Shown here one piece after another: positions 15,363 through 50,313 of a stretch of 64,000 bases of DNA (positions are counted from its first letter, which is position 1; each line of letters starts with the position of its first letter). The translations under genes and the position numbers were made by a program. This stretch comes from Pyropia yezoensis (lineage: Eukaryota > Rhodophyta > Bangiophyceae > Bangiales > Bangiaceae), in assembly GCA_009829735.1 (NCBI GenBank), contig CM020618.1, forward strand, positions 5,702,882-5,766,881, in the 5' to 3' direction. The notes beneath the pieces were generated by a model. It saw only the letters and a program-made list of their open reading frames with translations. It was not told the origin of the DNA and ran no database searches.

Positions 15363-17810
15363 ATGTCCTATCCCCAGGTGCTTGGAGAGGAGGAAGACCT
15401 CCTGATCGGGGAGGAGATGGAGGACGACGCGCCTGTCGGTCCCGACGCCGCGCGTTACGGGGTGAGCTCGTCTGACGACGACGGGCCTGCGGTGTCCGTG
15501 CGTCTGTCGGCCGGAGGACTGTCGTCCGTGTGCAGCGGCACGACGGTGCCGTCGGCCGGCGGTCAACCCGGCGGTCAACCGCGCGTGGCGGCTTCTACCC
15601 CCTCTCTGCCGGCTGCCCGGATGGAGCCTGGTGCCGGTGCCGGCTCACCGCAGCTACCTCAAGATGGTCCGCCCTGCGGCGGAGGTGGCGACTTGCAGCC
15701 GACTCCGGCTGGTCAAGGTGGTCCGCGTGTCCGGGCGGTGACTCCTCGAGGCGGTCCCGACGTTGACGCGGGCGGTGGTGGCGGTGCGACACCCGGTGCG
15801 GCGGGTCAAGACGGTGCGGGTGTCCGCATGGCCGGGGCTCCGGCTCCGGAGGCTGTCCAAGTGCCTTCCCCTTCCGAGGCGGGGGCTACGCCGACGGGTG
15901 GTGCCGGCGCCGGTACCGTACCTGCGGTGCCGCGGGTGTCGAGCGGTCAAGACGCTCCTTCTCCCATGGCGGTTGACACCGGGAGTTACTCCGGGCGGGC
16001 GCCCGCCCTTCTTCTTCCTCCTCGGCCTCGTCCATCTTCGACGTCGGCCCCTCTGCCGGTGGTGCGTCCCCCGGCGCCCCCGATTCTTCCTGGTCCTGCC
16101 CGGGTTGCCCCGTTGGGTGGCGGCGTCGCCGTGGCGGCGGGTCAACCCGCCATGTCGGTGTCCGACTTGGTGGCTCGGGTTCGAGGCCTCACGGTGCAAG
16201 AGTCGATGGAGTCCGATGGGCGTATGCGGGTGGACTTCCACCTGCCCCATCCCCGTGGAGAGTCCTCCCGGCGCGTCAAGGTGGACCCGAGCTGGGCGCG
16301 GGAGTTGGTGCGGCTGGTCAACCAGCCGAACGCGGTCCGGGTGGAGCACCGTTGGATCCTGAGTCAGCCGGACGACCGGCATGCGCAGCTCTGGCGCACC
16401 CGGGTGGGACGGGGTGAGGTCTACCTCGACCCCAACTTCGGGGTCTGCGACTTGATTGCCCCCGCGTTGCCGCGGGAGATTGACTACCCGGCTAGTGCTC
16501 GGGGGATTGCGGCGGCGGCGGAGCCGGTTGCGTTTGGGGAGACGGTGAGCCGTACCGGTCGGTATCCCGACTTTGACTACTACCCCGGGGTACCCCCGTA
16601 TCTGTCGTTGACGGCTCCCTACCCGCCCATGGCGGGGTTGAAGTCGGCGTCGAGTTGGCGACGTAACCATGGTGTCATGGCGGATGCGTTCCGCACGGAT
16701 ATAACGTGTGCGTTGCAGACCGGCAACGGTCGTGCTCCGGTATACACTCCCGTGCGCCCGCCGCTATGGCAGGAGGGGTGGGAACCCGCCCCTGCTTCCC
16801 GGTTTGACACCGGCTCCTGCCTTCGCTACTTCGGGAGTGTGTTGGCCTCGCGACCGGTCCACCCGTTGCAGGGTACCTTCACCCTTGAGGTTACCCTCGG
16901 GCAGGCTTCATCCTTCTTGCTGTCCGTCCGCCGGCAGGGTCGTCTGTTTCATCTTCCGACGGGTGTCCGTCGGCACATCGCGCAGTTGGGCGTGGATCTG
17001 ATAGCTGCCAAGACCGGGTTGGCCCGGGAGTTCGAAGCCCTGCTGGCTGTTCACGATGCCGTGAACTGGGCTGGGGTGTTGGCCCTTCCCCCGTACCGGG
17101 ACCCGCAGGCTGGGGCTTCCCCCTTGCCTCGTCACTCGTTGCGTGTCCGGCGTACTCAGCCGGGTGAGCCTAGTTGCCATGAGTGGGCGTCCACCGAGGC
17201 CGTTCCTGACCTGGGTATTCCCATGGTTATCCATGACCCTCTTCAGGTCCTTGCTCCGTGGTTCGGTAACCCGATGCCGGCGGCGGTTGGCCGTCGTCCC
17301 CGAGAGTGGGGCTCTGTGGGTGGGGAGCGTGAGGTGTCCCGTCGTCGGGCGGAGTACCGCCGTGGTTACGGTGGAGCCCCTTCGGTAGGGTCCTACCGGG
17401 CCTCGTATCAGGTGCCACCGGCTCCGGTGGTAGCCGTGTCGGCTCCTGTGGCTCCTCTGGCTGCGCCAGTGTCACCTCCCGCCCCTGTCCTACATGACGG
17501 GGGTCCCCGTCTCTGGTATGAGGGCGTTGACGCCCTTGTTACCCGCGCAATGCGTGGGGGTCTCTCTGTTCGCTGGGGGGATATCCCCCCAGGTGCTGCG
17601 CTGGTTGGGTCAGCGCGTTGCTTCGGTGGCGTGCTGGACCGCCTCCAGAAAGCTCTGGAGGACGTGGAGGCTGGCCGCAGCACCCTCGTCCAGCTATGCA
17701 CCGAGGTAACTCGGGTGGTCGACCGTCGTGACGTTGCCGACCGGTGGAGCACGGAGGTCTACGCGCTTACGCGTGAGTGGCCTCCCTCGGGCAGTGGGTC
17801 TACCCACTGA
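15363..17810 (+). CDS. Antisense ORF protein of gypsy-A (815 aa), unknown function
   Basis: This ORF is convergent to pol and lies between pol and the 3' LTR. The frame is open from 15252, but I choose the ATG at 15363 because it begins a natural acidic N-terminus (Met-Ser-Tyr-Pro-Gln, then a Glu-rich run) and the same start exists in copy A2. Layout: an acidic N-terminus of about 60 residues, a Gly/Ala/Pro-rich low-complexity middle to about residue 260, then a globular region with conserved aromatic residues to the end. There is no transmembrane segment, signal peptide or env-like feature. The segment coded at about 16878-16958 (FTLEVTL...GRLFHLP) aligns without gaps to the family C antisense protein. 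A role in packaging or in regulating the sense transcript is conceivable but not shown. The mRNA would be complementary to the genomic RNA. Confidence 0.8.
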   Translation: MSYPQVLGEEEDLLIGEEMEDDAPVGPDAARYGVSSSDDDGPAVSVRLSAGGLSSVCSGTTVPSAGGQPGGQPRVAASTPSLPAARMEPGAGAGSPQLPQDGPPCGGGGDLQPTPAGQGGPRVRAVTPRGGPDVDAGGGGGATPGAAGQDGAGVRMAGAPAPEAVQVPSPSEAGATPTGGAGAGTVPAVPRVSSGQDAPSPMAVDTGSYSGRAPALLLPPRPRPSSTSAPLPVVRPPAPPILPGPARVAPLGGGVAVAAGQPAMSVSDLVARVRGLTVQESMESDGRMRVDFHLPHPRGESSRRVKVDPSWARELVRLVNQPNAVRVEHRWILSQPDDRHAQLWRTRVGRGEVYLDPNFGVCDLIAPALPREIDYPASARGIAAAAEPVAFGETVSRTGRYPDFDYYPGVPPYLSLTAPYPPMAGLKSASSWRRNHGVMADAFRTDITCALQTGNGRAPVYTPVRPPLWQEGWEPAPASRFDTGSCLRYFGSVLASRPVHPLQGTFTLEVTLGQASSFLLSVRRQGRLFHLPTGVRRHIAQLGVDLIAAKTGLAREFEALLAVHDAVNWAGVLALPPYRDPQAGASPLPRHSLRVRRTQPGEPSCHEWASTEAVPDLGIPMVIHDPLQVLAPWFGNPMPAAVGRRPREWGSVGGEREVSRRRAEYRRGYGGAPSVGSYRASYQVPPAPVVAVSAPVAPLAAPVSPPAPVLHDGGPRLWYEGVDALVTRAMRGGLSVRWGDIPPGAALVGSARCFGGVLDRLQKALEDVEAGRSTLVQLCTEVTRVVDRRDVADRWSTEVYALTREWPPSGSGSTH

Positions 17811-18289
17811 GGAGTGCTATTGTTTGTGCGGGAGAGGGCCCCGGCAACCCTTATGGTAGCCGGGTAGTAGTGAGTATAAACTCATCCCCTTTGGGGGGCA
17901 TTGCTTGCCTCTGTTTGCTGCCCTGGGGAGTACCCCTTCTGGCTCAGTGGTGCCTTGCCTCCCGTCCAACTTCTTCCGGTAGGTTCATGCTTGGGGAGGT
18001 CATCCTCCCTCACTTGGTGTCTTGGCTTGGGGAGGTCATCCTCCCGTGTAAGCTCCCTAGTTACTTCGATATTATCGGAGTTAGCCTTTATTTTTAAGTT
18101 AACTTATTGAGGTTCAGGTTTTACTGAGTTACCTAAGCTTAGCTCTACTTAGTTACCTAAGCTTGGTTCGACTTAGAAACCTAAGTCTGATTTGACTTAG
18201 AAACCTAAGTCTGCCGTACCCACGTCACACCCTACTTAGTAGGTATAAGCCTCACCCCCCAACAGCCGAAGTCGGTGTCGGTTGGGTTG
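17811..18289. other. Convergent spacer between antisense ORF and pol
   Basis: Both genes end here. It holds two copies of a GGGAGG-TCAT-CCTCCC hairpin (about 17993-18045) and the 24-bp repeat array. A role in 3'-end formation for both transcripts is likely from position. The same spacer is conserved in copy A2 (41614-42092). Confidence 0.55.
18123..18218. repeat. Four 24-bp palindromic tandem repeats
   Basis: The units follow the pattern ACTTAG-(TTAC or AAAC)-CTAAG(C/T)-TT/CTG, each able to form a short stem (CTTAG/CTAAG). Copy A2 has the same array at 41926-42021. Confidence 0.8.
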
Positions 18290-21200
18290 TTACAGTAGGC
18301 GTCGTCGCCTCATGTAAGGCATGAGTAGTTGGCGGGGTATATTCGCCGCCTGTTCCCAGGTGGGTGAGTCGTATCCGACCCACATAACCTTGACGTACCA
18401 GGGTCCTGGAAGGTCCGGGTCGGTGTGTCCGACCACGCTCTCTACTTGGTATGGAATCCCATCCGGTCCCACCGGGTCATCCGACCGGTGGGTTGTAAGA
18501 GCTTCATGTAGCAACCCAGCCGGTACCGGCTGAGGCTGTTCCGGCTTCGGAGCAGGTGTGACATCATTCATACTGATGCGTTGAATCTCCGTATCGGAGT
18601 GTAAGATAACAGAGTGGTCATCTCTGTGGAGGATCTGGTACGGTCCCTTGACCGGTTGCATAAGCTTGTTCCCTCGGAACTTCTGGTGTCTGATATAGAC
18701 CCAGTCACCTGTTACCAGGGTTGCGTTGCGCACCCGTAGTCGGGCGTCGAAGTTCTTCTTATATCGAAGTTGTGTTCTGTCAAGGGCACCCTTGAGCTTA
18801 GGAATCATCCACGATAGCTTGGCCAACCAAGCTAGGTGGATGCGTTCGGCGGGTCGGCCCTTCGGTGTATCATACCGAGTGCACCTGCCGGGTGGCAGCG
18901 TCAGGTTACCGACGCCTAGTGGCATGACCCACTCCAGCGGAGCAATGTTTGTGCTCCGATGTGGCCTGGCATTGTATGCCAGGGTGAGTACGGACAGAAG
19001 CCTGTCCCAAGTGTTCGTGTGCTCGGCCACGTAGCACTGTAGCATCTTGACGATGGTGCGGTTGAACCGCTCCACCTGCCCGTTGGTTTGCGGGTGGTAG
19101 TCGGATGCCCGACGTGGTTCGATACCGAACATGCCCAGGACCTTAGTGCAGAATGCCGACGTAAGGTTTGCTCCGTTATCGGAGAGGAGTTGCTTCATGA
19201 CTCCGTATGCACTGATCCAGTGGTCAACCACTGCGTTCATGATCGTGTAAGCCGTATCATTCGGGATGGCTGCCGCTCTTGACAGCTTAGTGAAGCGGTC
19301 AGACATGACCAGGATGTACCTGTTCCCTTCTTCCGTTATCGGAAGTAGCCCGAGTATGTCGATAGCGACTTGCTCGTTGGGCCCATCGGGTGGGAAAAGC
19401 TTCATGGCAGACGCCTGCCTATGTAGACTCATGCGGTTACGTGCACAGGGGTGGCATCCCCGTACGTGGTCGACCACGTCGACGGCCATTGCTGGCCAGT
19501 AGAAGAACCTTCGCATTGCTGCGAACATACGTGAACCCCCCGGGTGTCCGGCTGTAGGGTTCTCATGTTCTCGTTTCATGACGGCTTGCCGTAAGGACAC
19601 GGGAACCACGACTTGATGTCGTCCATCGGCGGGTGCCCGCCGGTATATGAGTCCGTCTTCGTTCTCGGAGAAGATGCCGGCCGTACCGGCCAGGAGGTTA
19701 GCACGATGACGTCTACAGTCATCGTCGTTGGCCTGTGCCTCGCGGAAGTCCGCGAGGGTCAATGGGCACGCAAGGTGTGCCATGGTATGGTCAGCCATAC
19801 CCTGGGTAGCATTACCCACCATGCACACCGGTACTACCGGGATGTCCTCGTCCACCGGGCGGGTATCCCCGCTCGGGGTGTCGAGTCGAGACAACGCGTC
19901 TCCGAGGTGGTGGGTTGACCCAGCCTTATACACCGTGCGGTAGTCGTGCTCGGCCATCTTCAGCCTCCATCGGGCTAGCCTCCCATGGCTATCGGAATCC
20001 TTGTCACCAAGGTTGAGGAGCCATCGTAGGGGTTCGTGGTCGGACCTCACGATGAACCTGGAGCCCTCCAGGTATGGACGGAGCAGTTGCACTGCCCATA
20101 TAACTCCGAGGCATTCACGCTCGGTGGCACTATAGTTCCGCTCAGCCGGGTTGAGTGTCCGGCTGAAGTACCCTACCGGACGTAGGTCCGGGATAACGTT
20201 ATCGGAACCGATCAACGTCTCGCCCTGTAACAGGGTGCATCCCACTTGTGTATCACACGCATCGACATCGATGACGAAGGTACCCCGTCTATGCGGTAAC
20301 GCAAGGACGGGTGGGGCTAGTAGGGCTCGCTTCAGCGACTCGAATGCCTCCTCTTCGCTAGGCGAAGGGGGTTGGAGTACCTTGGGTAAGGTACTGCTCG
20401 TAAGAACCGTTAACGGTTTAGCTATCCGAGCGAAGTCCTTGACGAACCGTCGGTATACATTGCACATTCCCAGGAAGCTCTTGAGCTGCGTCTGGGTGTT
20501 ACGGAACCGGGCATCCCGGAGTGCCCGGGTATTGGCTTCGAGTACCCCTAGTTTACCAGGGGTTATCTGGTGGCCCAGATACTCGACCGTCTGTTGGAAG
20601 AAGGCGCACTTCTTCAGACGCAGGGTTACCCCGGCGTTCCTCAAGAGGGTGAGTACCTCGTCAACATGTTGTACATGGTCATCCATGTTACGCGAGAAGA
20701 CGATGACGTCATCGAGGTACACTAGGCAGTTACGCCACTTCACCCCCGACAGTATGATGTCGATAGCCCGCTGGAATGTAGCGGGGGCGTTGGACAATCC
20801 GAAGGGCATCCTTAGGAACTCGTACACTCCACTGTGACAGACGAATGCCGTCTTGGGGATATCCTCGTCTGCCACCGGGATCTGCCAGTATCCGGCATTG
20901 CAGTCGATGGTGGTAAACACCGTAGCCTCCCCCAGGGAGTCGATGCATTCATCCATCCTTGGTAAAGGGTATGAGTCCTTCTTGGTAACCAAGTTGAGGC
21001 GTCGATAATCGATGCAAAACCGAGGGGTTTGATCCTTCTTCGGTACAATAACGACTGGGGCACCCCACTCCGACATCGAAGGTCGGATCACCTTAGCTTC
21101 ACTCATCCTCTTCACTTCTCCATCAACGATCTCTCGTTGCATAGGTCCCGCTCGGTGCGGTTGTGAGCGGGCGGGTCGTGCGCCTGGTACCAGGTCTATA

Positions 21201-22456
21201 CGATGTTGGGTTGCCCCAATGGTACCCAAGGCCCCGCCTGTCCACATGACGTCATGCTTTCTTAGCATCCGTCGTACCCCTTCGGCTACCGAAGGGGGAA
21301 GGTGGTCGAGGTCAGCCTCGGCCAGTGCCTTCAAGGCCTCTTGGTCCTTTGGCGGCAGGTCCGCCGGAGCCGCCGATGGGTTAGGCTTCCCGTCATCGGG
21401 TTGCTGTCGCTCGGTGGTCTCGGCGACCGCCAGTACTTCAAGTGGTTCCACTTGACCTTCCTTATCAGGGGTAAGGATATCTCCTTCGTAGAGTTCGGCA
21501 ATCCCGAGGATAGTTCCCTTCGGGAGGGTGACTGCCTTACGGCGATAGTTCGCCATCACTAGGAGGGACGACCCTCCTGCTGGGAGGTCTATGAGAACGT
21601 TGGCCATGGTCAACCCATGGCGCTTGTACGTCCGTAGGTTGGACTGGACTCTGCAGATGCCTGCGAGGTCGCAGTTAACCGGGAGGACTGTCTCCGACAA
21701 CGGCTCAAAGCGAGTTCGCTTGGCCAACCGAAGTGTCTTCGGCTCGACGCTTGCGTACACCTCAGCCACGTTAACGTGGCTTCCTTGTAGCGTCAGGTCC
21801 CTGACGATAGCCGTGTGTCCTCGCTTCGTCCCGTCGGCTTCTTGAAGCTCGACGGTTCTCCGGCCTGGCCGGATTGCATCAACGTGAACGTTGATGAAGG
21901 TGCACCCCAGTATGCAGGGCACCGATAGCGTTTCACATACCAGGAAGTCGACTTCCGTGGTGAGATCCCCGATGGTAACCTGCAGCGACATCGCTGCGGT
22001 CGTACGAATGAGTCGACCATTCGCGTCCTTGATGGTGGGTCCCCGAGTCACTCTGACTCGTTGAAGCCACTTGTCCGGGAGGGTATCCTTCCGGATAAGG
22101 TTGGGTCCAGCCCCTGTGTCCAGTACCGGGTAGTACGATCGTGTCGACTGGGGGTCAACCCCCAGTGTGGCTGATACCTTGAAGTTCTCCAAGGTAAACA
22201 ACACATGTCCTACACCGATATCCGGTGTAGCTCGGGCATCCTGAACAGGGCCCTTGTCTGGTTCAACGTGACGGGGCTTCCCGTCCTCTCCTCCCAACCT
22301 TGGAGGTTGGTCATCAATCCCCTGACGCCGTGTCGTCGGGGCCGGAAGGTGTACCCGGGGGTTGATGCGGCGTCGGCTCAACCGCGCTCTCCGTGGGGCT
22401 TTCCCCGCGGTACTCCGGGGTGGCTTGCTTGGGTGACCCCAGCGCCCCCCAGTCAT
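18290..22456 (-). CDS. pol: Gypsy-A Pol polyprotein (PR-RT-RNaseH-IN-chromodomain)
   Basis: It has 1388 codons from the first ATG, though translation probably enters by -1 frameshifting from gag. Domains: aspartic protease with LDTGAG (residues 112-117) and CILG near 181; reverse transcriptase about 430-620 with the active-site YLDD at 580-583; RNase H about 690-850 (VIDVDAC, TERECL, LRSDHE-type Asp); integrase zinc finger H-H-C-x2-C about 960-1010, core with IDILG, SDNGAN and NGQVERFN giving the D-D-E triad; and a C-terminal chromodomain (YQVESVVG ... YVKVMWVGYDSPTWE). The chromodomain places it in the chromovirus branch of Ty3/gypsy, where it directs integration to marked chromatin. The frame is unbroken to TAA. 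Copy A2 differs at only a small number of residues. Confidence 0.93.
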   Translation of the reverse strand: MTGGRWGHPSKPPRSTAGKAPRRARLSRRRINPRVHLPAPTTRRQGIDDQPPRLGGEDGKPRHVEPDKGPVQDARATPDIGVGHVLFTLENFKVSATLGVDPQSTRSYYPVLDTGAGPNLIRKDTLPDKWLQRVRVTRGPTIKDANGRLIRTTAAMSLQVTIGDLTTEVDFLVCETLSVPCILGCTFINVHVDAIRPGRRTVELQEADGTKRGHTAIVRDLTLQGSHVNVAEVYASVEPKTLRLAKRTRFEPLSETVLPVNCDLAGICRVQSNLRTYKRHGLTMANVLIDLPAGGSSLLVMANYRRKAVTLPKGTILGIAELYEGDILTPDKEGQVEPLEVLAVAETTERQQPDDGKPNPSAAPADLPPKDQEALKALAEADLDHLPPSVAEGVRRMLRKHDVMWTGGALGTIGATQHRIDLVPGARPARSQPHRAGPMQREIVDGEVKRMSEAKVIRPSMSEWGAPVVIVPKKDQTPRFCIDYRRLNLVTKKDSYPLPRMDECIDSLGEATVFTTIDCNAGYWQIPVADEDIPKTAFVCHSGVYEFLRMPFGLSNAPATFQRAIDIILSGVKWRNCLVYLDDVIVFSRNMDDHVQHVDEVLTLLRNAGVTLRLKKCAFFQQTVEYLGHQITPGKLGVLEANTRALRDARFRNTQTQLKSFLGMCNVYRRFVKDFARIAKPLTVLTSSTLPKVLQPPSPSEEEAFESLKRALLAPPVLALPHRRGTFVIDVDACDTQVGCTLLQGETLIGSDNVIPDLRPVGYFSRTLNPAERNYSATERECLGVIWAVQLLRPYLEGSRFIVRSDHEPLRWLLNLGDKDSDSHGRLARWRLKMAEHDYRTVYKAGSTHHLGDALSRLDTPSGDTRPVDEDIPVVPVCMVGNATQGMADHTMAHLACPLTLADFREAQANDDDCRRHRANLLAGTAGIFSENEDGLIYRRAPADGRHQVVVPVSLRQAVMKREHENPTAGHPGGSRMFAAMRRFFYWPAMAVDVVDHVRGCHPCARNRMSLHRQASAMKLFPPDGPNEQVAIDILGLLPITEEGNRYILVMSDRFTKLSRAAAIPNDTAYTIMNAVVDHWISAYGVMKQLLSDNGANLTSAFCTKVLGMFGIEPRRASDYHPQTNGQVERFNRTIVKMLQCYVAEHTNTWDRLLSVLTLAYNARPHRSTNIAPLEWVMPLGVGNLTLPPGRCTRYDTPKGRPAERIHLAWLAKLSWMIPKLKGALDRTQLRYKKNFDARLRVRNATLVTGDWVYIRHQKFRGNKLMQPVKGPYQILHRDDHSVILHSDTEIQRISMNDVTPAPKPEQPQPVPAGLLHEALTTHRSDDPVGPDGIPYQVESVVGHTDPDLPGPWYVKVMWVGYDSPTWEQAANIPRQLLMPYMRRRRLL

Positions 22457-22464
22457 CCTTTCTC

Positions 22465-24648: not shown

Positions 24649-24855
24649 AGTCACAATCAGTCAACCGACGCAACGATCACCACGAATAAGAGAGCGAGGG
24701 GGTAGATTGGGGAGAGTAACAGTAGGTCACAGTCACAGGTAAAAGCTCAACACAATCGATCAGGTCGCAACACCACGAGTACAAGAAAAGGACCGGATCC
24801 CTATCCGTGTGCCAGGGCCGAAGACGGCGTCACCACAAGGGTGACGGAAACCCGT

Positions 24856-24872
24856 CCCCTGCTGCTCCACCA
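24856..24872 (-). promoter_or_regulatory. Primer binding site of copy A1
   Basis: On the minus strand, TGGTGGAGCAGCAGGGG starts one base after the 5' LTR. TGG complements the tRNA CCA end. I cannot name the tRNA. The identical 17 bases follow the LTR of family B at 28596. Confidence 0.8.
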
Positions 24873-24873
24873 A

Positions 24874-25236
24874 TGTAGCACAATAGGAATCCGTCGCACG
24901 TCCACTCTCAGGGAACACTCACCAAGGGGGATCGGCACCAACGTCACCGGGAGGCCAAGGTTGCTGTCCTTGGAGCGCAAGCCACGGGACCAAGATGGGA
25001 GCCCAAATGGGAGGGGTTTGTTGTTCTGCCTTGGCCGGCGGTGGATTCGCCGCCGGCCCCCTCGTTAAAAACCCTCGAAGACACTACTAACTACCCTCCA
25101 CCCCAAGATGCAAGTCCCTCTGGTCATACGTAACTTATAGATACCGTGACCAGTACGGACTCTCAAATGGAAAGTCAAGGATTAGAAGTAGCCCCCCTTA
25201 TACTAGGGTCACAATACGGACAACCATATTGCTACA
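24874..25236 (-). repeat. 5' LTR of gypsy-A copy A1
   Basis: It is 363 bp with the same ends as the 3' LTR. About nine substitutions distinguish the two, including TATAAA to TAAAAA in this copy. Confidence 0.9.
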
Positions 25237-26413: not shown

Positions 26414-26447
26414 GCCAGAGGGCGGGAGTCGTGCCGCCAGCCAACGG

Positions 26448-28124: not shown

Positions 28125-28593
28125 TGTGGCAGTATTGACCCCCAGGTAGGGGGGCAACACGTACCATGCAAGGGGCGGCAGGCCACTAGCCTGATCCGTT
28201 CCATCCCCTGCATTTGGGTCCATATTCCCTAAGTTTGAGATAGTTAGCTTAGTAGTAAATCCAACTTGGATTTGAGGGTTTTCTTCATTTATCGTCTTGA
28301 ATTTTCGTGTGGCCCGGTGGGCAGGTGCTGGGGTGGGAGATTCTGAGTGGCGAGATTCTGAGTGGACCCTGGGGGGATAAGGGGAGGGACAGCGGGGCTT
28401 GGCCCTGCGTCCCCGTCCCGACCAAGAAACTGTTGGACCACACACCATCCTCTTGTTTGTCCGTGGGGGGTTTGCCCCACAACAGGGACAGAGTGTGTGC
28501 GACTTGCACTTCTTCCGGTTCCCCCGACATGGGAGGCAGCCCGCGTACACCGCCCCAACTTGGGTGCCGTGTGTGCATGTGGTTTTTGCCACA
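28125..28593 (+). repeat. 5' LTR of gypsy-B
   Basis: It is 469 bp with ends TGTGGCAG...TTGCCACA, and two copies of the 15-bp GATTCTGAGTGGCGA unit. It matches 139-622 almost throughout. The five bases before it are CAGCA. Confidence 0.85.
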
Positions 28594-38219: not shown

Positions 38220-38581
38220 TGTAGCACAATAGGAATCCGTCGCACGTCCACTCTCAGGGAACACTCACCAAGGGGGATCGGCACCAACGTCACCGGGAGG
38301 CCAAGGTTGCTGTCCTTGGAGCGCAAGCCACGGGACCAAGATGGGAGCCCAAATGGGAGGGGTTTGTTGTTCTACCTTGGCCGGCGGTGGATTCGCCACC
38401 GGCCCCCTCGTTATAAACCCTCGGAGACACTACTAACTACCCTCCACCCCAAGATGCAAGTCCCTCTGGTCATACGTAACTTATAGATACCGTGACCAGC
38501 TCGGACTCTCAAATTGAAGTTAAGGATTAGAAGTAGCCCCCCTAATATTAGGGTCACAATACGGACAACCATATTGCTACA
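38220..38581 (-). repeat. 3' LTR of copy A2
   Basis: 362 bp, TGTAGCA...TGCTACA, with TATAAA retained on the plus strand. The polypurine tract follows at 38582-38594. Confidence 0.95.
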
Positions 38582-39166
38582 TATCCCCCCTTAGATTCGG
38601 CCCGTCCTCGGGTCGAGTTGCATTCGGGTTACCGAATGTAAGTGGGTCGCGTGACCGTTTACCAGTCGGGTGGGGCTTTGCGCCCCGTCGCGACAGACAC
38701 CCCTTTTCGAGGTTGTCTCAGGGGGGTGCCCCCCTTTGCGTGGTACACACACACGATCCGTTTTCCGGACCGTTAAATTCCCGATGCGGGTTGCTGTTCA
38801 CGCCCCCCCTTTCCGAGGGGTGGTGCAAGCGGATCCGCCACCAGGTGCCTGGTGGTAGGGGGGCCCCTCTCGTGTGGACGATTGAGTGGGGGGCGGGGCT
38901 GCCCGCGTTGCGTGGGGGCGGTTGGGGGTGACCCCCCTTACTTACCCCGTGTGTGGGTGTGGCCCCGTCCCGCCCAGGTGCCTGGGTGGAGCGCGGTCGT
39001 AGCCCCGTGGGGCGCGGGTCGACCCGCGTGTTTGTGGCGCTTCTCGTAGCCGTTTGTGGTCATAAGCGCGGGTGCCCGCGCTTCCCTGGCTCGTCCCGGT
39101 TATCCCACTGTACCGGGTTGTAGCCGTCGACGGCTTGTGGGCGCGGGGGACTCCGCACCCGTTATA

Positions 39167-41613: not shown

Positions 41614-42092
41614 GGAGTGCTATTGTTTGTGCGGGAGAGGGCCCCGGCAACCCTTATGGTAGCCGGGTAGTAGTGAGTATAAACTCATCCCCCGCTGGGG
41701 GCATTGCTTGCCTCTGTTTGCTGCCCTGGGGAGCACCCCTTCTGGCTCAGTGGTGCCTTGCCTCCCGTCCACTTTCTTCCGGTTGGTTCATGCTTGGGGA
41801 GGTCATCCTCCCTCACTTGGTGTCTTGGCTTGGGGAGGTCATCCTCCCGTGTAAGCCCCCTAGTTACTTCGATATTATCGGAGTTAGCCTTTACCTTTAA
41901 GTTAACTTATTAAGGTTCAGGTTTTACTTAGTTACCTAAGCTTAGCTCTACTTAGTTACCTAAGCTTGGTTCGACTTAGAAACCTAAGTCTGATTTGACT
42001 TAGAAACCTAAGTCTGCCGTAACCATGTCACACCCTACTTAGTAGGTATAAGCCTCACCCCCCAACAGCCGAAGTCGGTATCGGTTGGGTTG
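41614..42092. other. Convergent spacer of copy A2 with four 24-bp repeats
   Basis: It corresponds to 17811-18289. The repeats lie at about 41926-42021 and the paired GGGAGG/CCTCCC hairpins at about 41796-41848. Confidence 0.7.
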
Positions 42093-45000
42093 TTACAGTA
42101 GGCGTCGTCGCCTCATGTAAGGCATGAGGAGTTGGCAAGGTATGTTTGCCGCCTGTTCCCAGGTGGGTGAGTCGTATCCGACCCACATAACCTTGACGTA
42201 CCAGGGTCCTGGTAGGTCCGGGTCGGTGTGTCCGACCACGCTCTCTACTTGGTATGGAATGCCATCCGGTCCCACCGGGTCATCTGATCGGTGGGTTGTA
42301 AGGGCTTCATGTAGCAACCCAGCCGGTACCGGCTGAGGCTGTTCCGGCTTCGGAGCAGGTGTGACATCATTCATGCTGATGCGTTGAATCTCCGTATCGG
42401 AGTGTAAGATAACAGAGTGGTCATCTCTGTGGAGGATCTGGTACGGTCCCTTGACCGGTTGCATAAGCTTGTTCCCTCGGAACTTCTGGTGTCTGATATA
42501 GACCCAGTCACCTGTTACCAGGGTTGCGTTGCGCACCCGTAGTCGGGCGTCGAAGTTCTTCTTATATCGAAGTTGTGTTCTGTCAAGGGCACCCTTGAGC
42601 TTAGGAATCATCCACGATAGCTTGGCCAACCAAGCTAGGTGGATGCGTTCGGCGGGTCGGCCCTTCGGTGTATCATACCGAGTGCACCTGCCGGGTGGCA
42701 GCGTCAGGTTACCGACGCCTAGTGGCATGACCCACTCCAGCGGAGCAATGTTTGTGCTCCGATGTGGCCTGGCATTGTATGCCAGGGTGAGTACGGACAG
42801 AAGCCTGTCCCAAGTGTTCGTGTGCTCGGCCACGTAGCACTGTAGAATCTTTACAATGGTGCGGTTGAACCGCTCCACCTGCCCGTTGGACTGCGGGTGG
42901 TAGTCGGATGCCCGACGTGGTTCGATACCGAACATGCCCAGGACCTTTGTGCAGAATGCCGACGTAAGGTTTGCTCCGTTATCGGAGAGGAGTTGCTTCA
43001 TGACTCCGTATGCACTGATCCAGTGGTCAACCACTGCGTTCATGATCGTGTATGCCGTATCATTCGGGATGGCTGCCGCTCTTGACAGCTTAGTGAATCG
43101 GTCAGACATGACCAGGATGTACCTGTTCCCTTCTTCCGTTATCGGAAGTGGCCCGAGTATGTCGATAGCGACTTGTTCGTTGGGCCCATCAGGTGGGAAT
43201 AGCTTCATGGCAGACGCCTGCCTATGTAGGCTCATGCGGTTACGTGCACAGGGGTGGCATCCCCTTACGTGGTCGACCACGTCGACGGCCATTGCTGGCC
43301 AGTAGAAGAACCTTCGCATTGCTGCGAACATACGTGAACCCCCCGGGTGTCCGGCTGTAGGGTTCTCATGTTCTCGTTCCATGACGGCTTGCCGTAAGGA
43401 CACGGGAACCACGACTTGATGTCGTCCATCGGCGGGTGCCCGCCGGTATATGAGTCCGTCTTCGTTCTCGGAGAAGATGCCGGCCGTACCGGCCAGGAGG
43501 TTAGCACGATGACGTCTACAGTCATCGTCGTTGGCCTGTGCCTCGCGGAAGTCCGCGAGGGTCAATGGGCACGCAAGGTGTGCCATGGTATGGTCAGCCA
43601 TACCCTGGGTAGCATTACCCACCATGCACACCGGTACTACCGGGATGTCCTCGTCCACCGGGCGGGTATCCCCGCTCGGGGTGTCGAGTCGAGACAACGC
43701 GTCTCCGAGGTGGTGGGTTGACCCAGCCTTATACACCGTGCGGTAGTCGTGCTCGGCCATCTTCAGCCTCCATCGGGCTAGCCTCCCATGGCTATCGGAA
43801 TCCTTGTCACCAAGGTTGAGGAGCCATCGTAGGGGTTCGTGGTCGGACCTCACGATGAACCTGGAGCCCTCCAGGTATGGACGGAGCAGTTGCACTGCCC
43901 ATATAACTCCGAGGCATTCACGCTCGGTGGCACTATAGTTCCGCTCAGCCGGGTTGAGTGTCCGGCTGAAGTACCCTACCGGACGTAGGTCCGGGATAAC
44001 GTTATCGGTACCGATCAACGTCTCTCCCTGTAACAGGGTGCATCCCACTTGTGTATCACACGCATCGACATCGATGACGAAGGTACCCCGTCTATGCGGT
44101 AACGCAAGGACGGGTGGGGCTAGTAGGGTTCGCTTCAGCGACTCGAATGCCTCCTCTTCGCTAGGCGAAGGGGGTTGGAGTACCTTGGGTAAGGTACTGC
44201 TCGTAAGAACCGTTAACGGTTTAGCTATCCGAGCGAAGTCCTTGACGAACCGTCGGTATACATTGCACATTCCCAGGAAGCTCTTGAGCTGCGTCTGGGT
44301 GTTAGGGAACCGGGCATCCCGGAGTGCCCGGGTATTGGCTTCGAGTACCCCTAGCTTACCAGGGGTTATCTGGTGGCCCAGATACTCGACCGTCTGTTGG
44401 AAGAAGGCGCACTTCTTCAGACGCAGGGTTACCCCGGCGTTCCTCAAGAGGGTAAGTACCTCGTCAACATGTTGTACATGGTCATCCATGTTACGCGAGA
44501 AGACGATGACGTCATCGAGGTACACTAGGCAGTTACGCCACTTCACCCCCGACAGTATGATGTCGATAGCCCGCTGGAATGTAGCGGGGGCGTTGGACAA
44601 TCCGAAGGGCATCCTTAGGAACTCGTACACTCCACTGTGACAGACGAATGCCGTCTTGGGGATATCCTCGTCCGCCACCGGGATCTGCCAGTATCCGGCA
44701 TTGCAGTCGATGGTGGTAAACACCGTAGCCTCCCCCAGGGAGTCGATGCATTCATCCATCCTTGGTAAAGGGTATGAGTCCTTCTTGGTAACCAAGTTGA
44801 GGCGTCGATAATCGATGCAAAACCGAGGAGTTTGATCCTTCTTCGGCACAATAACGACTGGGGCACCCCATTCCGACATCGAAGGTCGGATCACCTTAGC
44901 TTCACTCATCCTCTTCACTTCTCCATCAACGATCTCTCGTTGCCTAGGTCCCGCTCGGTGCGGTTGTGAGCGGGCGGGTCGTGCGCCTGGTACCAGGTCT

Positions 45001-46259
45001 ATACGATGTTGGGTTGCCCCAATGGTCCCCAAGGCCCCGCCTGTCCACATAACGTCATGCTTTCTAAGCATCCGTCGTACCCCTTCGGCTACCGAAGGGG
45101 GAAGGTGGTCGAGGTCAGCCTCGGCCAGTGCCTTCAAGGCCTCTTGGTCCTTTGGCGGCAGGTCCGCCGGCGCCGCCGATGGGTTAGGCTTCCCGTCATC
45201 GGTTTGCTGTCGCTCGGTGGTCTCGGCGACCGCCAGTACTTCAAGTGGTTCCACTTGACCTTCCTTATCAGGGGTAAGGATATCTCCTTCGTAGAGTTCG
45301 GCAATCCCGAGGATAGTTCCCTTCGGGAGGGTGACTGCCTTACGGCGATAGTTCGCCATCACTAGGAGGGACGACCCTCCTGCTGGGAGGTCTATGAGAC
45401 CGTTGGCCATGGTCAACCCATGGCGCTTGTACGTCCGTAGGTTGGACTGGACTCTGCAGATGCCTGCGAGGTCGCAGTTAACCGGGAGGACTGTCTCTGA
45501 CAACGGCTCAAAGCGAGTTCGCTTGGCCAACCGAAGTGTCTTCGGCTCGACGCTTGCGTACACCTCAGCCACGTTAACGTGGCTTCCTTGTAGCGTCAGG
45601 TCCCTGACGATAGCCGTGTGTCCTCGCTTCGTCCCGTCGGCTTCTTGAAGCTCGACGGTCCTCCGGCCTGGCCGGATTGCATCAACGTGAACGTTGATGA
45701 AGGTGCACCCCAGTATGCAGGGCACCGATAGCGTTTCACATACCAGGAAGTCAACTTCCGTGGTGAGATCCCCGATGGTAACCTGCAGCGACATCGCTGC
45801 GGTCGTACGAATGAGTCGACCATTCGCGTCCTTGATGGTGGGTCCCCGAGTCACTCTGACTCGTGGAAGCCACTTGTCCGGGAGGGTATCCTTCCGGATA
45901 AGGTTGGGTCCAGCCCCTGTGTCCAGTACAGGGTAGTACGATCGTGTCGACTGGGGGTCAACCCCCAGTGTGGCTGATACCTTGAAGTTCTCCAAGGTAA
46001 ACAACACATGTCCTACACCGATATCCGGTGTAGCTCGGGCATCCTGAACAGGGCCCTTGTCTGGTTCAACGTGACGGGGCTTCCCGTCCTCTCCTCCCAA
46101 CCTTGGAGGTTGGTCATCAATCCCCTGACGCCGTGTCGTCGGGGCCGGAAGGTGTACCCGGGGGTTGATGCGGCGTCGGCTCAACCGCGCTCTCCGTGGG
46201 GCTTTCCCCGCGGTACTCCGGGGTGGCTTGCTTGGGTGACCCCAGCGCCCCCCGGTCAT
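42093..46259 (-). CDS. pol: Gypsy-A Pol polyprotein, copy A2
   Basis: It has 1388 codons, colinear with the A1 protein: protease DTGAG, RT YLDD, RNase H, integrase and chromodomain all intact. Differences from A1 are scattered substitutions. In the integrase core this copy has IDILGPLP, the usual form, where A1 has IDILGLLP. Near the end of the core this copy has QSNGQ where A1 has the commoner QTNGQ. Both copies look coding-competent. Confidence 0.93.
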   Translation of the reverse strand: MTGGRWGHPSKPPRSTAGKAPRRARLSRRRINPRVHLPAPTTRRQGIDDQPPRLGGEDGKPRHVEPDKGPVQDARATPDIGVGHVLFTLENFKVSATLGVDPQSTRSYYPVLDTGAGPNLIRKDTLPDKWLPRVRVTRGPTIKDANGRLIRTTAAMSLQVTIGDLTTEVDFLVCETLSVPCILGCTFINVHVDAIRPGRRTVELQEADGTKRGHTAIVRDLTLQGSHVNVAEVYASVEPKTLRLAKRTRFEPLSETVLPVNCDLAGICRVQSNLRTYKRHGLTMANGLIDLPAGGSSLLVMANYRRKAVTLPKGTILGIAELYEGDILTPDKEGQVEPLEVLAVAETTERQQTDDGKPNPSAAPADLPPKDQEALKALAEADLDHLPPSVAEGVRRMLRKHDVMWTGGALGTIGATQHRIDLVPGARPARSQPHRAGPRQREIVDGEVKRMSEAKVIRPSMSEWGAPVVIVPKKDQTPRFCIDYRRLNLVTKKDSYPLPRMDECIDSLGEATVFTTIDCNAGYWQIPVADEDIPKTAFVCHSGVYEFLRMPFGLSNAPATFQRAIDIILSGVKWRNCLVYLDDVIVFSRNMDDHVQHVDEVLTLLRNAGVTLRLKKCAFFQQTVEYLGHQITPGKLGVLEANTRALRDARFPNTQTQLKSFLGMCNVYRRFVKDFARIAKPLTVLTSSTLPKVLQPPSPSEEEAFESLKRTLLAPPVLALPHRRGTFVIDVDACDTQVGCTLLQGETLIGTDNVIPDLRPVGYFSRTLNPAERNYSATERECLGVIWAVQLLRPYLEGSRFIVRSDHEPLRWLLNLGDKDSDSHGRLARWRLKMAEHDYRTVYKAGSTHHLGDALSRLDTPSGDTRPVDEDIPVVPVCMVGNATQGMADHTMAHLACPLTLADFREAQANDDDCRRHRANLLAGTAGIFSENEDGLIYRRAPADGRHQVVVPVSLRQAVMEREHENPTAGHPGGSRMFAAMRRFFYWPAMAVDVVDHVRGCHPCARNRMSLHRQASAMKLFPPDGPNEQVAIDILGPLPITEEGNRYILVMSDRFTKLSRAAAIPNDTAYTIMNAVVDHWISAYGVMKQLLSDNGANLTSAFCTKVLGMFGIEPRRASDYHPQSNGQVERFNRTIVKILQCYVAEHTNTWDRLLSVLTLAYNARPHRSTNIAPLEWVMPLGVGNLTLPPGRCTRYDTPKGRPAERIHLAWLAKLSWMIPKLKGALDRTQLRYKKNFDARLRVRNATLVTGDWVYIRHQKFRGNKLMQPVKGPYQILHRDDHSVILHSDTEIQRISMNDVTPAPKPEQPQPVPAGLLHEALTTHRSDDPVGPDGIPYQVESVVGHTDPDLPGPWYVKVMWVGYDSPTWEQAANIPCQLLMPYMRRRRLL

Positions 46260-46267
46260 CCTTCCTC

Positions 46268-48451
46268 TTACTCGTTTCCCGCCCTTGGTAGGGTGCTGTC
46301 CGCCGGGACATCCGGCTGAGGAGGTGCCCCCTCGACGGCCAGTACTCCACCTGGAGCTGGCTGCCTACCCGGTGCGGGTCCGGGTGCTCGGGCGGGATAC
46401 CCCCCGGTGGATGCCTTGCGTTGCGCCGCTGCCCGCCGAGACTCCTCGGGGATGAGTGGGCAGGAAGACACCGAGTGCTGGGGATCCCCACACAACATAC
46501 ACCCGGACGTGCCGGTCCCCCCTTGAGGTCGCATCGGGGTAGCCCCGTAGCTACGGTTGCCTCCCTCGGGCGCCCGAGTGCCTGCTCCCTGGTAGGCCTT
46601 GGGTCCTTGGGTCAACCGGAACATGGACTCCCCCAATCGGTTGGGTCGGCCCGCAATCTGCGGAGGTGCCTCCGTGCGCACCGCCCATGTTGGCAAGGGT
46701 TGGTGAGGGCTACCCGTCACCGGGGAGTACCCCGTAGTCCGCACATACGGGACGCGCCGTCCCGTTCCTTCGTTGACCTGGAACTGGGTTCCAGCCGGGG
46801 CGATGTACGCTACCGTACCGTGTTCATCAATCACCGGCGTCGCCGGTAGCAACAGGTGGCCCTGTTGGTCGACTAGAGGGTCATCCTCACCAATAGGGGT
46901 ATGTTCGGTCGCCACCAGTACTGGTGCGGCCTTGCGTTCCACCTTCTCTTGCCTCGGTACCGGGGTAAGACTGGGCTTGCCTCCCTCACCCTTGGGCTTC
47001 GGGGCCAAGGCACACTCCGGGTGTAGAACCCGGTATGCGTCCCCTAGGGACTTGCACATATGCATCAGTCGACTGAAGTTCGTCCGTGCCGTGTTGGCGC
47101 CCCGTGCGGATATCCGCACGTAGTTGGGTACTCCTGCGAACAGGATGGCCCGTAGCTCCCCTTCTCCGAGGAGCTTCCCCAGCTCGTAGTCGAGCTCTTG
47201 GATCCGGCGTCCAAACATCTCCTCATCCTCCCAGGACTGGGCGGTGGCAGTGCGAAGGGCCCGATAGTGGTCCTCGCACTTGTCCTCACTGAGGTAGCTG
47301 CTCAGCAGCTCCTTCAATATCCCACGGTAATCCATGGGGGTGGCCGCGACCCTCATTCCCGGCATCGGGGATGCCTGGCGAAGAATGCCTCGCACCCGTT
47401 CATCAACAAAGAACGGGAGGATCTCCAGGGCCAGCCCCTCGTTAACGAGCGCCTTGTCTGCGGCTGCCTTGAAGCTAGTCAAGAAGCCGATGACTGCCAA
47501 CGGGCGTCCGTTCGGCCCCCCGAACATAGGGACTCCCTTCATAAGGGTCTGCATAGAACGGATCGCCCGATGCGACGTATTGCGCATCGATTCCGATACG
47601 GTGGTAGAGCGGTCCTCCAAACGATAACGTTCCGGAGTAAGAACCGACCGGAAGACCTCGTTGACGATCTCCGTGTCAGCGTCCTGGATATCCAGTCGCT
47701 TAGCCAGTTGATGAGCGAACTCATCGGACTCCATCCGCTTCAGTAGGCTCGCAGTTACCTGCGCGGTCATAGCTTCCACCACTGAAGATGGTACTTCAGG
47801 CGTCGGCACCTCGGGAACCCGAGTTGCCTGGCCTCCTTCGTCGTGAGGGTACTGCGAGAGGGTACCCCCTCCCCCAATAACCGACTCTCCCCCGGCGTAA
47901 GTATCCGCCGGGTCGTGTCCGCGGAGTCCGCTTCGGGTACTCCGAGCGTATCGCTCCGTGTGACTCCGTTCCAACTCTGCCGACGAGTCGGACCCATATC
48001 CCATTGTGTCCGGGGGTTGTCCAGGAGTAGCAACCCCGGGATTGACCCTGGTGGACTCCGAAAGTAGACCGGCCGGTTCGAACCGTACCGGTGTGGGAGG
48101 AACACGACGGGGTCCCGTCGTGTGCCGTGTTGACATCAACACTGCCATTGCGTCCTCCGTCCGATCTTGACGGGCGTCGAGCCCGGAAAACCGGGCCTCG
48201 ATGCGGGCCAATGATGCCATCAGGGAATCCCCTGGTGAAGGAGGCGGCGGAGTGAGGTCGGTCGACGACAGTTGAGGCGGGCCCCCGCCTCCTGCCGTCC
48301 GAGCCGTGCCAAACGTCGATCCGGCACCAAAAAGCATTGGCGTCTCAATGTTATCGATCGGGTTCCCGATCCCGGTTCCCGTAGTCACCTCCGGAGTCGG
48401 CGTCGACGCCGATCCGTCATCTTGAACGTTCCCCGTCTCTTGGGTAGACAT
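46268..48451 (-). CDS. gag: Gypsy-A Gag, copy A2
   Basis: It has 727 codons from the ATG at 48449-48451. It has the same zinc knuckle (C-x2-C-x4-H-x4-C), with one substitution inside it (Trp to Ser after the His). It ends in TAA just after the frameshift heptamer at 46274-46280. Confidence 0.9.
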   Translation of the reverse strand: MSTQETGNVQDDGSASTPTPEVTTGTGIGNPIDNIETPMLFGAGSTFGTARTAGGGGPPQLSSTDLTPPPPSPGDSLMASLARIEARFSGLDARQDRTEDAMAVLMSTRHTTGPRRVPPTPVRFEPAGLLSESTRVNPGVATPGQPPDTMGYGSDSSAELERSHTERYARSTRSGLRGHDPADTYAGGESVIGGGGTLSQYPHDEGGQATRVPEVPTPEVPSSVVEAMTAQVTASLLKRMESDEFAHQLAKRLDIQDADTEIVNEVFRSVLTPERYRLEDRSTTVSESMRNTSHRAIRSMQTLMKGVPMFGGPNGRPLAVIGFLTSFKAAADKALVNEGLALEILPFFVDERVRGILRQASPMPGMRVAATPMDYRGILKELLSSYLSEDKCEDHYRALRTATAQSWEDEEMFGRRIQELDYELGKLLGEGELRAILFAGVPNYVRISARGANTARTNFSRLMHMCKSLGDAYRVLHPECALAPKPKGEGGKPSLTPVPRQEKVERKAAPVLVATEHTPIGEDDPLVDQQGHLLLPATPVIDEHGTVAYIAPAGTQFQVNEGTGRRVPYVRTTGYSPVTGSPHQPLPTWAVRTEAPPQIAGRPNRLGESMFRLTQGPKAYQGAGTRAPEGGNRSYGATPMRPQGGTGTSGCMLCGDPQHSVSSCPLIPEESRRAAAQRKASTGGYPARAPGPAPGRQPAPGGVLAVEGAPPQPDVPADSTLPRAGNE
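46274..46280 (-). promoter_or_regulatory. -1 frameshift heptamer GGGAAAC, copy A2
   Basis: It has the same sequence and phase as in A1, although flanking bases differ slightly between the copies. Confidence 0.75.
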
Positions 48452-48658
48452 AGTCACAATCAGTCAACCGACGCAACGATCACCACGAATACGAGAGCGA
48501 GGGGGTAGATTGGGGAGAGTAACAGTAGGTCACAGTCACAGGTAAAAGCTCAACACAATCGATCAGGTCGCAACACCACGAGTACAAGAAAAGGACCGGA
48601 TCCCTATCCGTGTGCCAGGGCCGAAGACGGCGTCACCACAAGGGTGACGGAAACCCGT

Positions 48659-48675
48659 CCCCTGCTGCTCCACCA
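48659..48675 (-). promoter_or_regulatory. Primer binding site of copy A2
   Basis: TGGTGGAGCAGCAGGGG on the minus strand, one base inside the 5' LTR. Confidence 0.8.
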
Positions 48676-48676
48676 A

Positions 48677-49038
48677 TGTAGCACAATAGGAATCCGTCGC
48701 ACGTCCACTCTCAGGGAACACTCACCAAGGGGGATCGGCACCAACGTCACCGGGAGGCCAAGGTTGCTGTCCTTGGAGCGCAAGCCACGGGACCAAGATG
48801 GGAGCCCAAATGGGAGGGGTTTGTTGTTCTACCTTGGCCGGCGGTGGATTCGCCACCGGCCCCCTCGTTATAAACCCTCGGAGACACTACTAACTACCCT
48901 CCACCCCAAGATGCAAGTCCCTCTGGTCATACGTAACTTATAGATACCGTGACCAGCTCGGACTCTCAAATTGAAGTTAAGGATTAGAAGTAGCCCCCCT
49001 AATATTAGGGTCACAATACGGACAACCATATTGCTACA
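48677..49038 (-). repeat. 5' LTR of copy A2
   Basis: 362 bp, apparently identical to the 3' LTR. The primer site lies at 48659-48675. Confidence 0.95.
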
Positions 49039-49043
49039 CCCAG
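49039..49043. repeat. Target site duplication CCCAG, right
   Basis: It matches 38215-38219. The duplicated bases belong to the gypsy-C antisense ORF. Confidence 0.9.
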
Positions 49044-50313
49044 TCGGCAGGAGATCAAGGGCGGCCGGGGCAGGAAAGCTACCTAGCTGCGGCCACGCCG
49101 GAAGCGGCGTCGCCAGCTGCACCTTAGCCAGAGAAGACTGGTAGACCACCTGCGCCCAACCGAAGCCATCCCGACGCGGGCGGTTCTGGTCGGCAATCGC
49201 GTTCAAGAAGTTCCGGTCATGCACCGGCACCAGACGCCGGAAGTCAATCATCGCCTGGAAGAGCCCCTTGTACTCTTCGTCCTGGCTGCACAGGAAGTCG
49301 ACGGTCAACTTGTCGACAATCCAGACCATCAGGAGGTCAGGGAGAAACCAAAGCCGGTTGGACACCAAGACCTCGTGAAGCCAGTGTTTGGCCGCCAAGA
49401 CTGTCATCTCGGACGTGTACATCATGTACGGGATCGAGTGGAAGAAGCCCTTGATCGACGCCTGAGTCAAGGCGTCCAAGAAGTACCAGGTGAAGGGGAT
49501 GCTGGAAGGAGCAAACCCGACCGGGATCTCGACTTCCTGCTGCTGCGGGATGACCTTGGGGTAGTACGCCGCCCGGTTAGCCTTATCCAGCTTCCAGAAC
49601 TCCTGATGGTTGCAGCTCACGAGGAAGTCACGCTGACGGCCGCGTCGCTCGCCTTGCTCCCGTGCCGGTGACAACTTGGAGTACTTCCGGGTCAGGAAAG
49701 GCGGCTCCAGAGCGACCATGCTCGGACGGGGGTCGCAGTTCAGGCTCCCCGACCCCTTGAGCGCCTCGTCCCAGACCTTGAGCGCCCGGTGGACGTACCC
49801 TTCCTCCTCCGGCCACCGGAGAACGGACGCGGACACGCGACGCTCGGTCAAGGGTAGATCCAGCACCAGCGCGAAGGGGAGATCCTCCAGACGAGCAACC
49901 CAAGAGGAACCCGAGAAGCTCTGGGAGCGGTCTTGTGCCAGGCGCATCTGGTCCGCCGTGTGAAGAAGAGCCTTATCCATCTCGGTCAGGACCCCGCGCT
50001 GGAGTTCCTTGCGCCAGAGGTCCAAGCAATCCTGCTGGCACTGGGCCGCGCCGGCGTTGCCGACCACCGTGGAGTAGCGCCGGCCCGCCAGAGGGTCCTG
50101 CCCAAGAAGCATCTCCAGGAGACCCACCGGGGGGGTCTCGACCGGGTGCATCACAGAAGCCGGGGGAACCCGATCCGTCCCCGCCGTGGCGACCGGCGCC
50201 GACATCGACACCCGAGGAACCGGAGGCAGGAGAGGGGCGCGACTACCCGAGTTCTCCTCCGCAACACTCGCCGCCGGAACCACGGGCCCAGCTTGGATCT
50301 CGGAACTGGACAT
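49039..50313 (-). CDS. Gypsy-C antisense ORF, 5' part
   Basis: The frame is open from 50505, but that start lies within the LTR. I choose the ATG at 50311-50313 (Met-Ser-Ser-Ser-Glu-Ile), followed by a Pro/Ala-rich N-terminus, as in the family A protein. A globular region follows, rich in Trp, Phe and Leu. The segment coded by 49339-49419 (YTSEMTV...NRLWFLP) aligns gap-free over 27 residues with the family A antisense protein, about 10 identical plus several conservative. It continues across the A2 insertion into 38214-37372. Function unknown. Confidence 0.75.

Follow-up and report, generated by a model that had tools for sequence, protein, structure and literature searches.

Why would a retrotransposon carry a long open reading frame (ORF) on the strand opposite to its pol gene, and is such a frame a gene? 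The question is raised by a 64,000-nt stretch of the Pyropia yezoensis genome (C1:5,702,882-5,766,881; hereafter the window), in which Ty3/gypsy elements of three families, gypsy-A, gypsy-B and gypsy-C, are accompanied by an ORF antisense to pol (aORF). The published P. yezoensis assembly is described as consisting of repeats to 48%, with long terminal repeat (LTR) elements predominating (PMC7423979), and as having a guanine-plus-cytosine (GC) content of 65%. LTR elements with an antisense ORF in the interval from pol to the 3' LTR form an established class, which includes Grande, RIRE2, Retand and PvRetro13 in plants and Boty in fungi (PMC7264820). Having searched the genome (107.48 Mb) and compared the encoded proteins, we have very little doubt that the aORF is a real gene and that its copies in the different families are homologous.

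Position, strand and intactness of the antisense ORF

A1 and A2 belong to the same gypsy family, share 98.4% identity and have gag and pol on the - strand (Table 1). This is the sense strand of the element, since the primer-binding site, which follows the 5' LTR, and the purine-rich tract that precedes the 3' LTR are read as pol is. The A1 aORF lies on the opposite strand, tail to tail with pol and separated from it by 479 nt, and its coordinates and 815 codons are those that an earlier note on this DNA had given. The A2 aORF has its start and stop as in A1 and is 1 nt shorter (2447 versus 2448 nt). It extends over two frames (39050-40414 and 40381-41613), so that the ends previously assigned to it hold and the single open ORF does not. 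A2 is bounded by a target duplication, CCCAG, at 38215-38219 and 49039-49043, which encloses its aORF as had been claimed, and the two - strand pieces attributed to gypsy-C are indeed halves of one aORF split by A2.

Genome searches listed the places that ranked highest by protein score; the counts are therefore lower bounds, and the share of intact copies is a biased rate. They scored at least 84 A-type aORF places (81 of the 84 without a stop in the searched part), at least 94 C-type places (83 of 94 without a stop) and at least 118 B-type places (117 of 118). The C query (48973-50313) ends with 66 nt of A2 LTR, and its non-self matches end at residues 424-427. All 30 A loci that we fetched have the common aORF stop, and a single 705-codon frame, running from the start of the searched part to the common stop, is present in 22 of 30 fetched C loci, which include the window's own A2-interrupted copy. 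In the gypsy-B copy adjoining the window on the left (L071), antisense frames of 442 and 302 codons lie between pol and the LTR. Since 99 of the 118 best-scoring B places consist of one 724-codon frame, L071 is, by this comparison, probably a frameshifted copy.

The association with pol was assessed in gypsy-B from the best-scoring 104 pol and 118 aORF places. Here, a scored aORF place follows 921-937 nt downstream of 41 of the 104 pol places, against about 0.5 by chance; the observed 41 of 104 is a lower bound and not a rate. The two are on opposite strands in 41 of the 41 pairs and on the same strand in none; one extra pair has the aORF place upstream, 1493 nt off. The distance from the 3' LTR to the aORF start is 340 nt in B and 586 nt in A. 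In layout, the elements fit the aORF-3R structural class (antisense between pol and the 3' LTR), A and B by their LTRs, primer-binding site orientation and ORFs, and C by the antisense orientation of its aORF to pol alone.

The antisense proteins of three families are related

The earlier note had linked A and C by a 27-residue match (A 16878-16958, C 49339-49419). No ungapped 27-mer shared by the two proteins scores better than this match, which has 10 identities; as evidence for homology on its own the match is weak, because 14 of 200 shuffles equal it. The gypsy-B aORF provides the connection. The first frame of the L071 aORF scores z 12.3 against A, 8.7 against A' (the protein of an A-subfamily locus, L069, 70% identical to A) and 10.0 against the A-type relative P0007, and z 10.9 against C, 20.3 against P0012 and 9.3 against P0013, the latter two being C-type relatives. 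None of 2000 shuffles equaled the score in any of the six comparisons. Profile comparison by hhalign agrees, with P values of 8e-6 for A-B and 1.4e-7 for C-B (0 of 100 shuffles each), and the 27-residue stretch falls within the region that the alignments have in common with B. Because the B aORF matches both A and C, the three are homologous: the alignments show homology across A, B and C for a region of about 200 residues, and the proposal that the gene is part of at least two divergent families now extends to three.

Compared directly, A and C give a borderline or failed result. BLASTP returns an E value of 0.072 over the region of the 27-residue match, hhalign gives P values of 0.024 and 0.43 in two alignments and is equaled by 48 of 100 shuffles in a third, and in Smith-Waterman comparisons 31 of 1000 shuffles are as good for A and C and 8 of 1000 for A and P0012. 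There was no Smith-Waterman signal for A' with C (945 of 1000 shuffles equal), P0007 with C (604 of 1000) or P0007 with P0012 (117 of 1000). On sequence scores, the direct A/C comparison is not conclusive without B, and the A/C relationship passes decisively through it. We do not claim homology for the C-terminal domains, where shuffle tests are mixed: 3 and 2 of 1000 shuffles are as good for A' with C, and 10 and 20 of 1000 for A with C (hhalign 1 of 100), and no signal was found for P0007, P0008, P0015 or P0017 with C (at least 83 of 1000).

The families that share this protein are well separated. The B aORF protein is 19-29% identical to the other eight sequences of alignment A6. The RNase H-integrase part of pol is 46% identical between A and B; the RNase H piece of C shares 60% of its residues with A and 48% with B, and its integrase piece 44% and 51%, respectively, so that these domains range from 44 to 60% identity among the three families. 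The same C pieces are 38% (RNase H) and 31% (integrase) identical to a further gypsy family in the genome. To judge from these relationships, the aORF most likely predates the separation of A, B and C. A distant family with a 1186-codon pol (L070) was considered as an example lacking an aORF and was dropped, as its pol ends at 707 and a B element from 1081 hides the place in question. L070 1-707 belongs to an additional gypsy family, whose chromodomain is clear (57 bits), the B element following about 370 nt later.

Selection acts on the antisense frame

Long frames are common in this DNA, the window containing 158 stop-to-stop frames of at least 150 amino acids, and one might suppose that the aORF stayed open by chance because the DNA is GC-rich, or that it mirrors a sense gene. 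We compared A with A' over 622 codons and obtained a nonsynonymous rate (dN) of 0.20, a synonymous rate (dS) of 0.70 and a ratio of 0.287. Read in its five other frames, this DNA gives dN/dS of 0.45, 1.0, 1.2, 1.7 and 1.8, with 6-20 stops in each frame, and the differences fall on codon positions 3:1:2 as 241:135:96. This frame-specific ratio and the homology across families refute the chance-frame explanation in our view, and the shared stop of the 30 A loci also speaks against it; we consider its probability negligible.

Variation within families points the same way. Over the last 515 aORF codons, the 30 A loci have 24 nonsynonymous and 55 synonymous single-base variants, a nonsynonymous-to-synonymous ratio (N/S) of 0.16, versus 0.167 in the terminal part of pol (26 of 30 loci). 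The C aORF has an N/S of 0.31 over 424 codons (30 loci) and of 0.46 over 705 codons (22 of 30 loci in frame), compared with 0.45 at the end of its pol (25 of 30). The A loci are the best protein scores among at least 84 places and the C loci 30 of at least 94 places. In these loci the aORF is thus conserved like pol, with selection strongest on the globular part in A and on the N-terminal half in C. By these substitution ratios, the antisense frame is under purifying selection. The claim that its product is old and selected is borne out by the homology across families, by relatives in Pyropia vietnamensis and by a dN/dS of 0.29, a value well below 1 that comes from score-ranked copies and one subfamily pair. 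A suspected A subfamily with three TGA stops was discarded, since in L069, the one copy read, these stops fall past its own aORF end.

Could the antisense RNA itself be what matters, by forming a duplex with genomic RNA or giving rise to small RNAs, with the ORF as a by-product? The tail-to-tail layout does make the aORF RNA complementary to genomic RNA, and this explanation was raised by reviewers for the plant aORFs (PMC7264820). Pairing alone is insufficient, however, because it would not demand amino-acid selection, which is found precisely in the antisense frame, and the protein is recognizable across families. We therefore regard a purely RNA-based function as quite improbable; an RNA duplex may act alongside the protein.

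Relatives outside the window's elements

Homologs exist in other elements, and protein searches, which scored the approximately 8000 candidates with most words in common per search, returned relatives in P. vietnamensis. Six P. vietnamensis proteins, P0007-P0010, P0015 and P0016, are A-type relatives at 33-53% identity; one of the six represents a cluster of 19 members. P0006, P0014 and P0017 are further A-type relatives. C-type relatives are P0012 and P0013 at 42-43% identity and P0011 at 99%. The P. vietnamensis records list the aORF gene as a 'hypothetical protein', some with apparently skipped stretches in the alignment. A scan of IMG/VR with A and a scan of bacterial and archaeal genomes with A5 returned no relative.

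These searches also bear on the possibility that the aORF was captured from the host, or is a recent passenger that chance has preserved. LTR elements are known to capture genes (PMC7264820). Such an origin would have to be reconciled with the presence of relatives in P. vietnamensis and in each of three divergent families, with the dN/dS of 0.29, and with the fact that no host-like relative was among the matches in 5.8 billion proteins at the search depth given above. Taken together, these observations make capture very improbable.

A candidate new protein family

By eye, the aORF proteins have an N terminus rich in Pro, Ala, Gly and Ser, a globular middle and a short C-terminal part, with a Pro/Ala-rich linker in A and C; the globular part comprises about 400 residues. 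No aORF protein (A1, the second A2 frame, the C pieces, two B frames, A', P0007 and P0012) matches Pfam above cut-off, the weak rows DUF6214 (A), FUSC and DUF641 (second B frame) and ASTN_2_hairpin (P0012) being far under the cut-offs. Neither NCBIfam (four aORF proteins) nor a sequence profile search of the PDB gave a match at E<=1. Two AlphaFold models, with mean predicted local distance difference test (pLDDT) scores of 29.7 and 30.1, are unusable.

The plant aORFs are the closest parallels in layout. Grande gene23 and the antisense ORFs of RIRE2 and Retand (ORF4) are, like the aORF described here, long, on the opposite strand and between pol and the 3' LTR, and in the plants they are kept in most copies (PMC7264820, PMC11963269). 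In potentially recently active Retand elements the aORF is always antisense, with TRP28 in 97% of 122 clusters (PMC11963269). Retand aORFs thus mostly carry TRP28 (Transposase_28), whereas the red-algal aORFs have no match to it, none being found in A1, the second A2 frame and the C pieces (E<=0.1) or in two B frames, C, A', P0007 and P0012 (E<=1). Retand is also called a non-chromovirus in that study (PMC11963269), whereas pol ends in a chromodomain-like part in all three red-algal families, with matches that are weak and under cut-off. Boty of Botrytis and Sclerotinia, an element of fungal hosts, likewise carries an antisense aORF in this interval (PMC7264820), the comparison being one of layout only. 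Envelope-like ORFs occupy the same place, but they are sense and have a membrane span (PMC7264820), whereas the aORF is antisense and has no clear span. The plant systems have flowering-plant hosts, and here the host is a red alga; in the literature that we searched, a scope outside which lay most subscription papers and all supplements, no red-algal gene of this kind is reported. The layout is therefore known, the protein family appears new by the tests run, and the host lineage is apparently new. By the same tests the aORF would form a separate protein family; with Grande gene23, RIRE2 and Boty the comparison is one of layout.

In principle, the product of the antisense strand could be a second protein of the particle or one that serves in transport, such as a capsid partner, a nucleic-acid chaperone or an aid to cell-to-cell movement. 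A globular part about 400 residues long, which within A is roughly as well conserved as pol, and the lack of any enzyme match are in line with this explanation, the main rival to a regulatory protein. However, the aORF proteins are unlike the gag frames of the elements, no similarity being detected between four aORFs and two gag frames (at least 106 of 500 shuffles equal in all 8 comparisons). They also have no clear membrane span, the highest 19-residue hydropathy being 1.1-1.7. The maximum is in a Gly/Ala-rich stretch of A', and C reaches 1.55 within the shared region, near the customary threshold for a membrane span of 1.6, so that the protein may still touch a membrane. In addition, a separate antisense RNA would require its own expression timing. 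A particle or transport function thus appears unlikely, though less so than the other alternatives.

A possible nuclear regulator

What, then, does the antisense protein do? The earlier note had named RNA pairing, coating or carrying the particle, and counter-silencing as candidates. Two known antisense genes suggest an answer. Grande gene23 is nuclear and has its own promoter and antisense transcript (PMC7264820), a nuclear regulatory role has been proposed for the plant aORFs (PMC7264820, PMC11963269), and human T-cell leukemia virus type 1 (HTLV-1) HBZ is an antisense gene of a retrovirus (PMC11963269). HBZ is known to act in trans as a nuclear regulator. Like HBZ, the aORF is an antisense protein gene, and a functional likeness would exist only if it is a regulator. 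The regulator domain of HBZ-type proteins is a leucine zipper (bZIP); no Pfam match to bZIP was found in the aORFs tested, and the aORF is not a member of the HBZ family.

We consider the aORF an accessory gene of one Pyropia Ty3/gypsy lineage, selected as a protein and acting in trans as a nuclear regulator, a statement that we judge, as a whole, to be evenly poised. Its transcript would be its own and would begin either in the stretch that separates the 3' LTR from the aORF or in the LTR. Placed near the 3' LTR and read towards pol, an antisense gene could be expressed from integrated DNA independently of genomic RNA. Less surely, the protein would then regulate the element in trans in the nucleus, through transcription, counter-silencing or RNA handling. 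A nuclear regulator is our best guess because there is no enzyme match and no clear membrane feature and by analogy with Grande gene23 and HBZ; taken on its own, we propose this role tentatively, at somewhat less than even confidence. The B aORF protein has an Arg/Ser-rich basic tail and a pI (isoelectric point) of 11.

Several observations weigh against the nuclear regulator and the selection behind it. The window and its left flank contain five aORF copies, and that of A1 alone is intact: the A2 copy has a frameshift, L071 is divided over two frames, the A2 insertion splits the C copy, and an assembly gap truncates the B remnant. Constraint is weak on the first 300 aORF codons in A (N/S 0.58; 27 of 30 loci) and on the C-terminal half of the C aORF (N/S 0.75). 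Copies were picked by aORF score, which leads to fewer apparent nonsynonymous changes in the aORF, and pol was not so picked. The C-terminal domain of B gave no signal with those of A, A', P0007, P0017 or C (at least 330 of 1000 shuffles). The strong basic tail is absent from A, A' and C, so that the nuclear role draws on B and on analogy. Finally, the whole case is built from genome and protein sequence.

Element structure of the window

Table 1. Gypsy features in and beside the window (positions in the window unless stated otherwise).
Feature	Position	Strand	Description
gypsy-A copy A1	14414..25236	-	LTRs 97.5% identical (self-blastn); ends TGTAGC...GCTACA; primer-binding site and purine-rich tract read on - strand
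A1 LTRs	3' LTR 14414-14776; 5' LTR 24874-25236	-	self-blastn
A1 aORF	15363..17810	+	815 codons; ATG 15363, stop 17808-17810
A1 pol	18290..22561	-	protease, reverse transcriptase, RNase H, integrase; Pfam RVT_1 3.4e-36 and others; weak chromodomain-like C terminus
A1 gag frame	22465..24660	-	between 5' LTR and pol; weak CCHC-like knuckle, zf-CCHC_2 E 0.074, under cut-off
gypsy-A copy A2	38220..49038	-	in gypsy-C aORF; target duplication CCCAG; LTRs 99.7% identical
A2 aORF	39167..41613	+	frameshifted
gypsy-B 5' LTR	28126..28593	+	95.2% identical to B LTR at 140-622 (self-blastn); followed by same primer-binding site letters as A
gypsy-B gag/pol frames	28623..33548	+	28623-29966, 29944-31350, 31449-33548; RVT_1 3.9e-32, RNase H, integrase; chromodomain-like end
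gypsy-B gag	28623-29966	+	assigned by position; no Pfam match
gypsy-B aORF remnant, C-terminal part	33660..34562	-	interrupted by assembly gap (N 34563-35062); 99.4% identical to L071 1-1045
3' LTR of gypsy-B copy adjoining window on left	140..622	+	aORF of that copy is L071, bridging A and C
Remainder of B aORF	L071 942-2270 (genome C1:5701541-5702869)		antisense to pol
gypsy-C pol remnant	35063..37015	+	RNase H, integrase (Pfam, tblastn); tail to tail with C aORF
gypsy-C aORF, C-terminal half	37372..38214	-	past A2 insertion
gypsy-C aORF, N-terminal half	49039..50313	-	ATG at 50313

The target duplication of A2 is perfect; the flanks of A1 do not match (CTCTT at 14409-14413 versus GTACG at 25237-25241), and A1 may have originated by recombination between copies. 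An 18-letter primer-binding site, TGGTGGAGCAGCAGGGGA, is common to B (28596-28613, +) and A (24855-24872, -). Neither Pfam nor tblastn found a reverse transcriptase in the window's gypsy-C pol remnant. Two assembly gaps of exactly 500 N each, at 34563-35062 and 58185-58684, would account for the low apparent GC content at 34-36 kb and 58-60 kb.

At the end of pol, the Chromo domain scores 14.2 bits in A, 23.3 in B and 22.5 in a genome copy of C (L040), all under the cut-off of 25.1. Chromodomain elements of Ectocarpus are reported to be unrelated to chromoviruses (PMC12477816), and an earlier survey reports no retrotransposon chromodomains in the Porphyra yezoensis sequences then available (PMC3350952). 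The B integrase end at 32349-33545 is 100% identical over 399 residues to that at C1:5699427-5700623, about 35.8 kb apart, the other scored places being 96-97% identical; a local duplication is possible. Among the 104 best-scoring B integrase ends, 58 have the same score and E value (890.2 bits, 3.6e-267), as would be expected of a very recent burst.

Outside the gypsy elements, the frame at 52297-54144 encodes a DDE transposase domain (Plant_tran 1.2e-61, DDE_Tnp_4 3.5e-14) and belongs to what we take to be a Harbinger-type DNA transposon gene. Direct-repeat arrays lie at 59300-60275 (spacing about 177 nt), 54467-55390 (about 60 nt) and 4756-5380 (about 45 nt).

Implications

Most descriptions of antisense accessory genes in LTR elements concern flowering plants. 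In one red-algal genome, three families together have at least 296 scored places of such a gene, here without TRP28, which suggests that the arrangement has been arrived at repeatedly and is not peculiar to plants. Many intact copies, together with the divergence between families, offer conserved positions for testing. A bolder proposal, plausible to us and still doubtful, is that the aORF represents an undescribed red-algal protein family in chromodomain-type gypsy elements, unrelated to the plant antisense proteins and acting in trans as an anti-silencing or transcription factor. If this were true, antisense regulators would have arisen independently in retroviruses, in plant Retand elements and in red-algal elements, and this would hint at a general advantage in placing a nuclear regulator on the minus strand.

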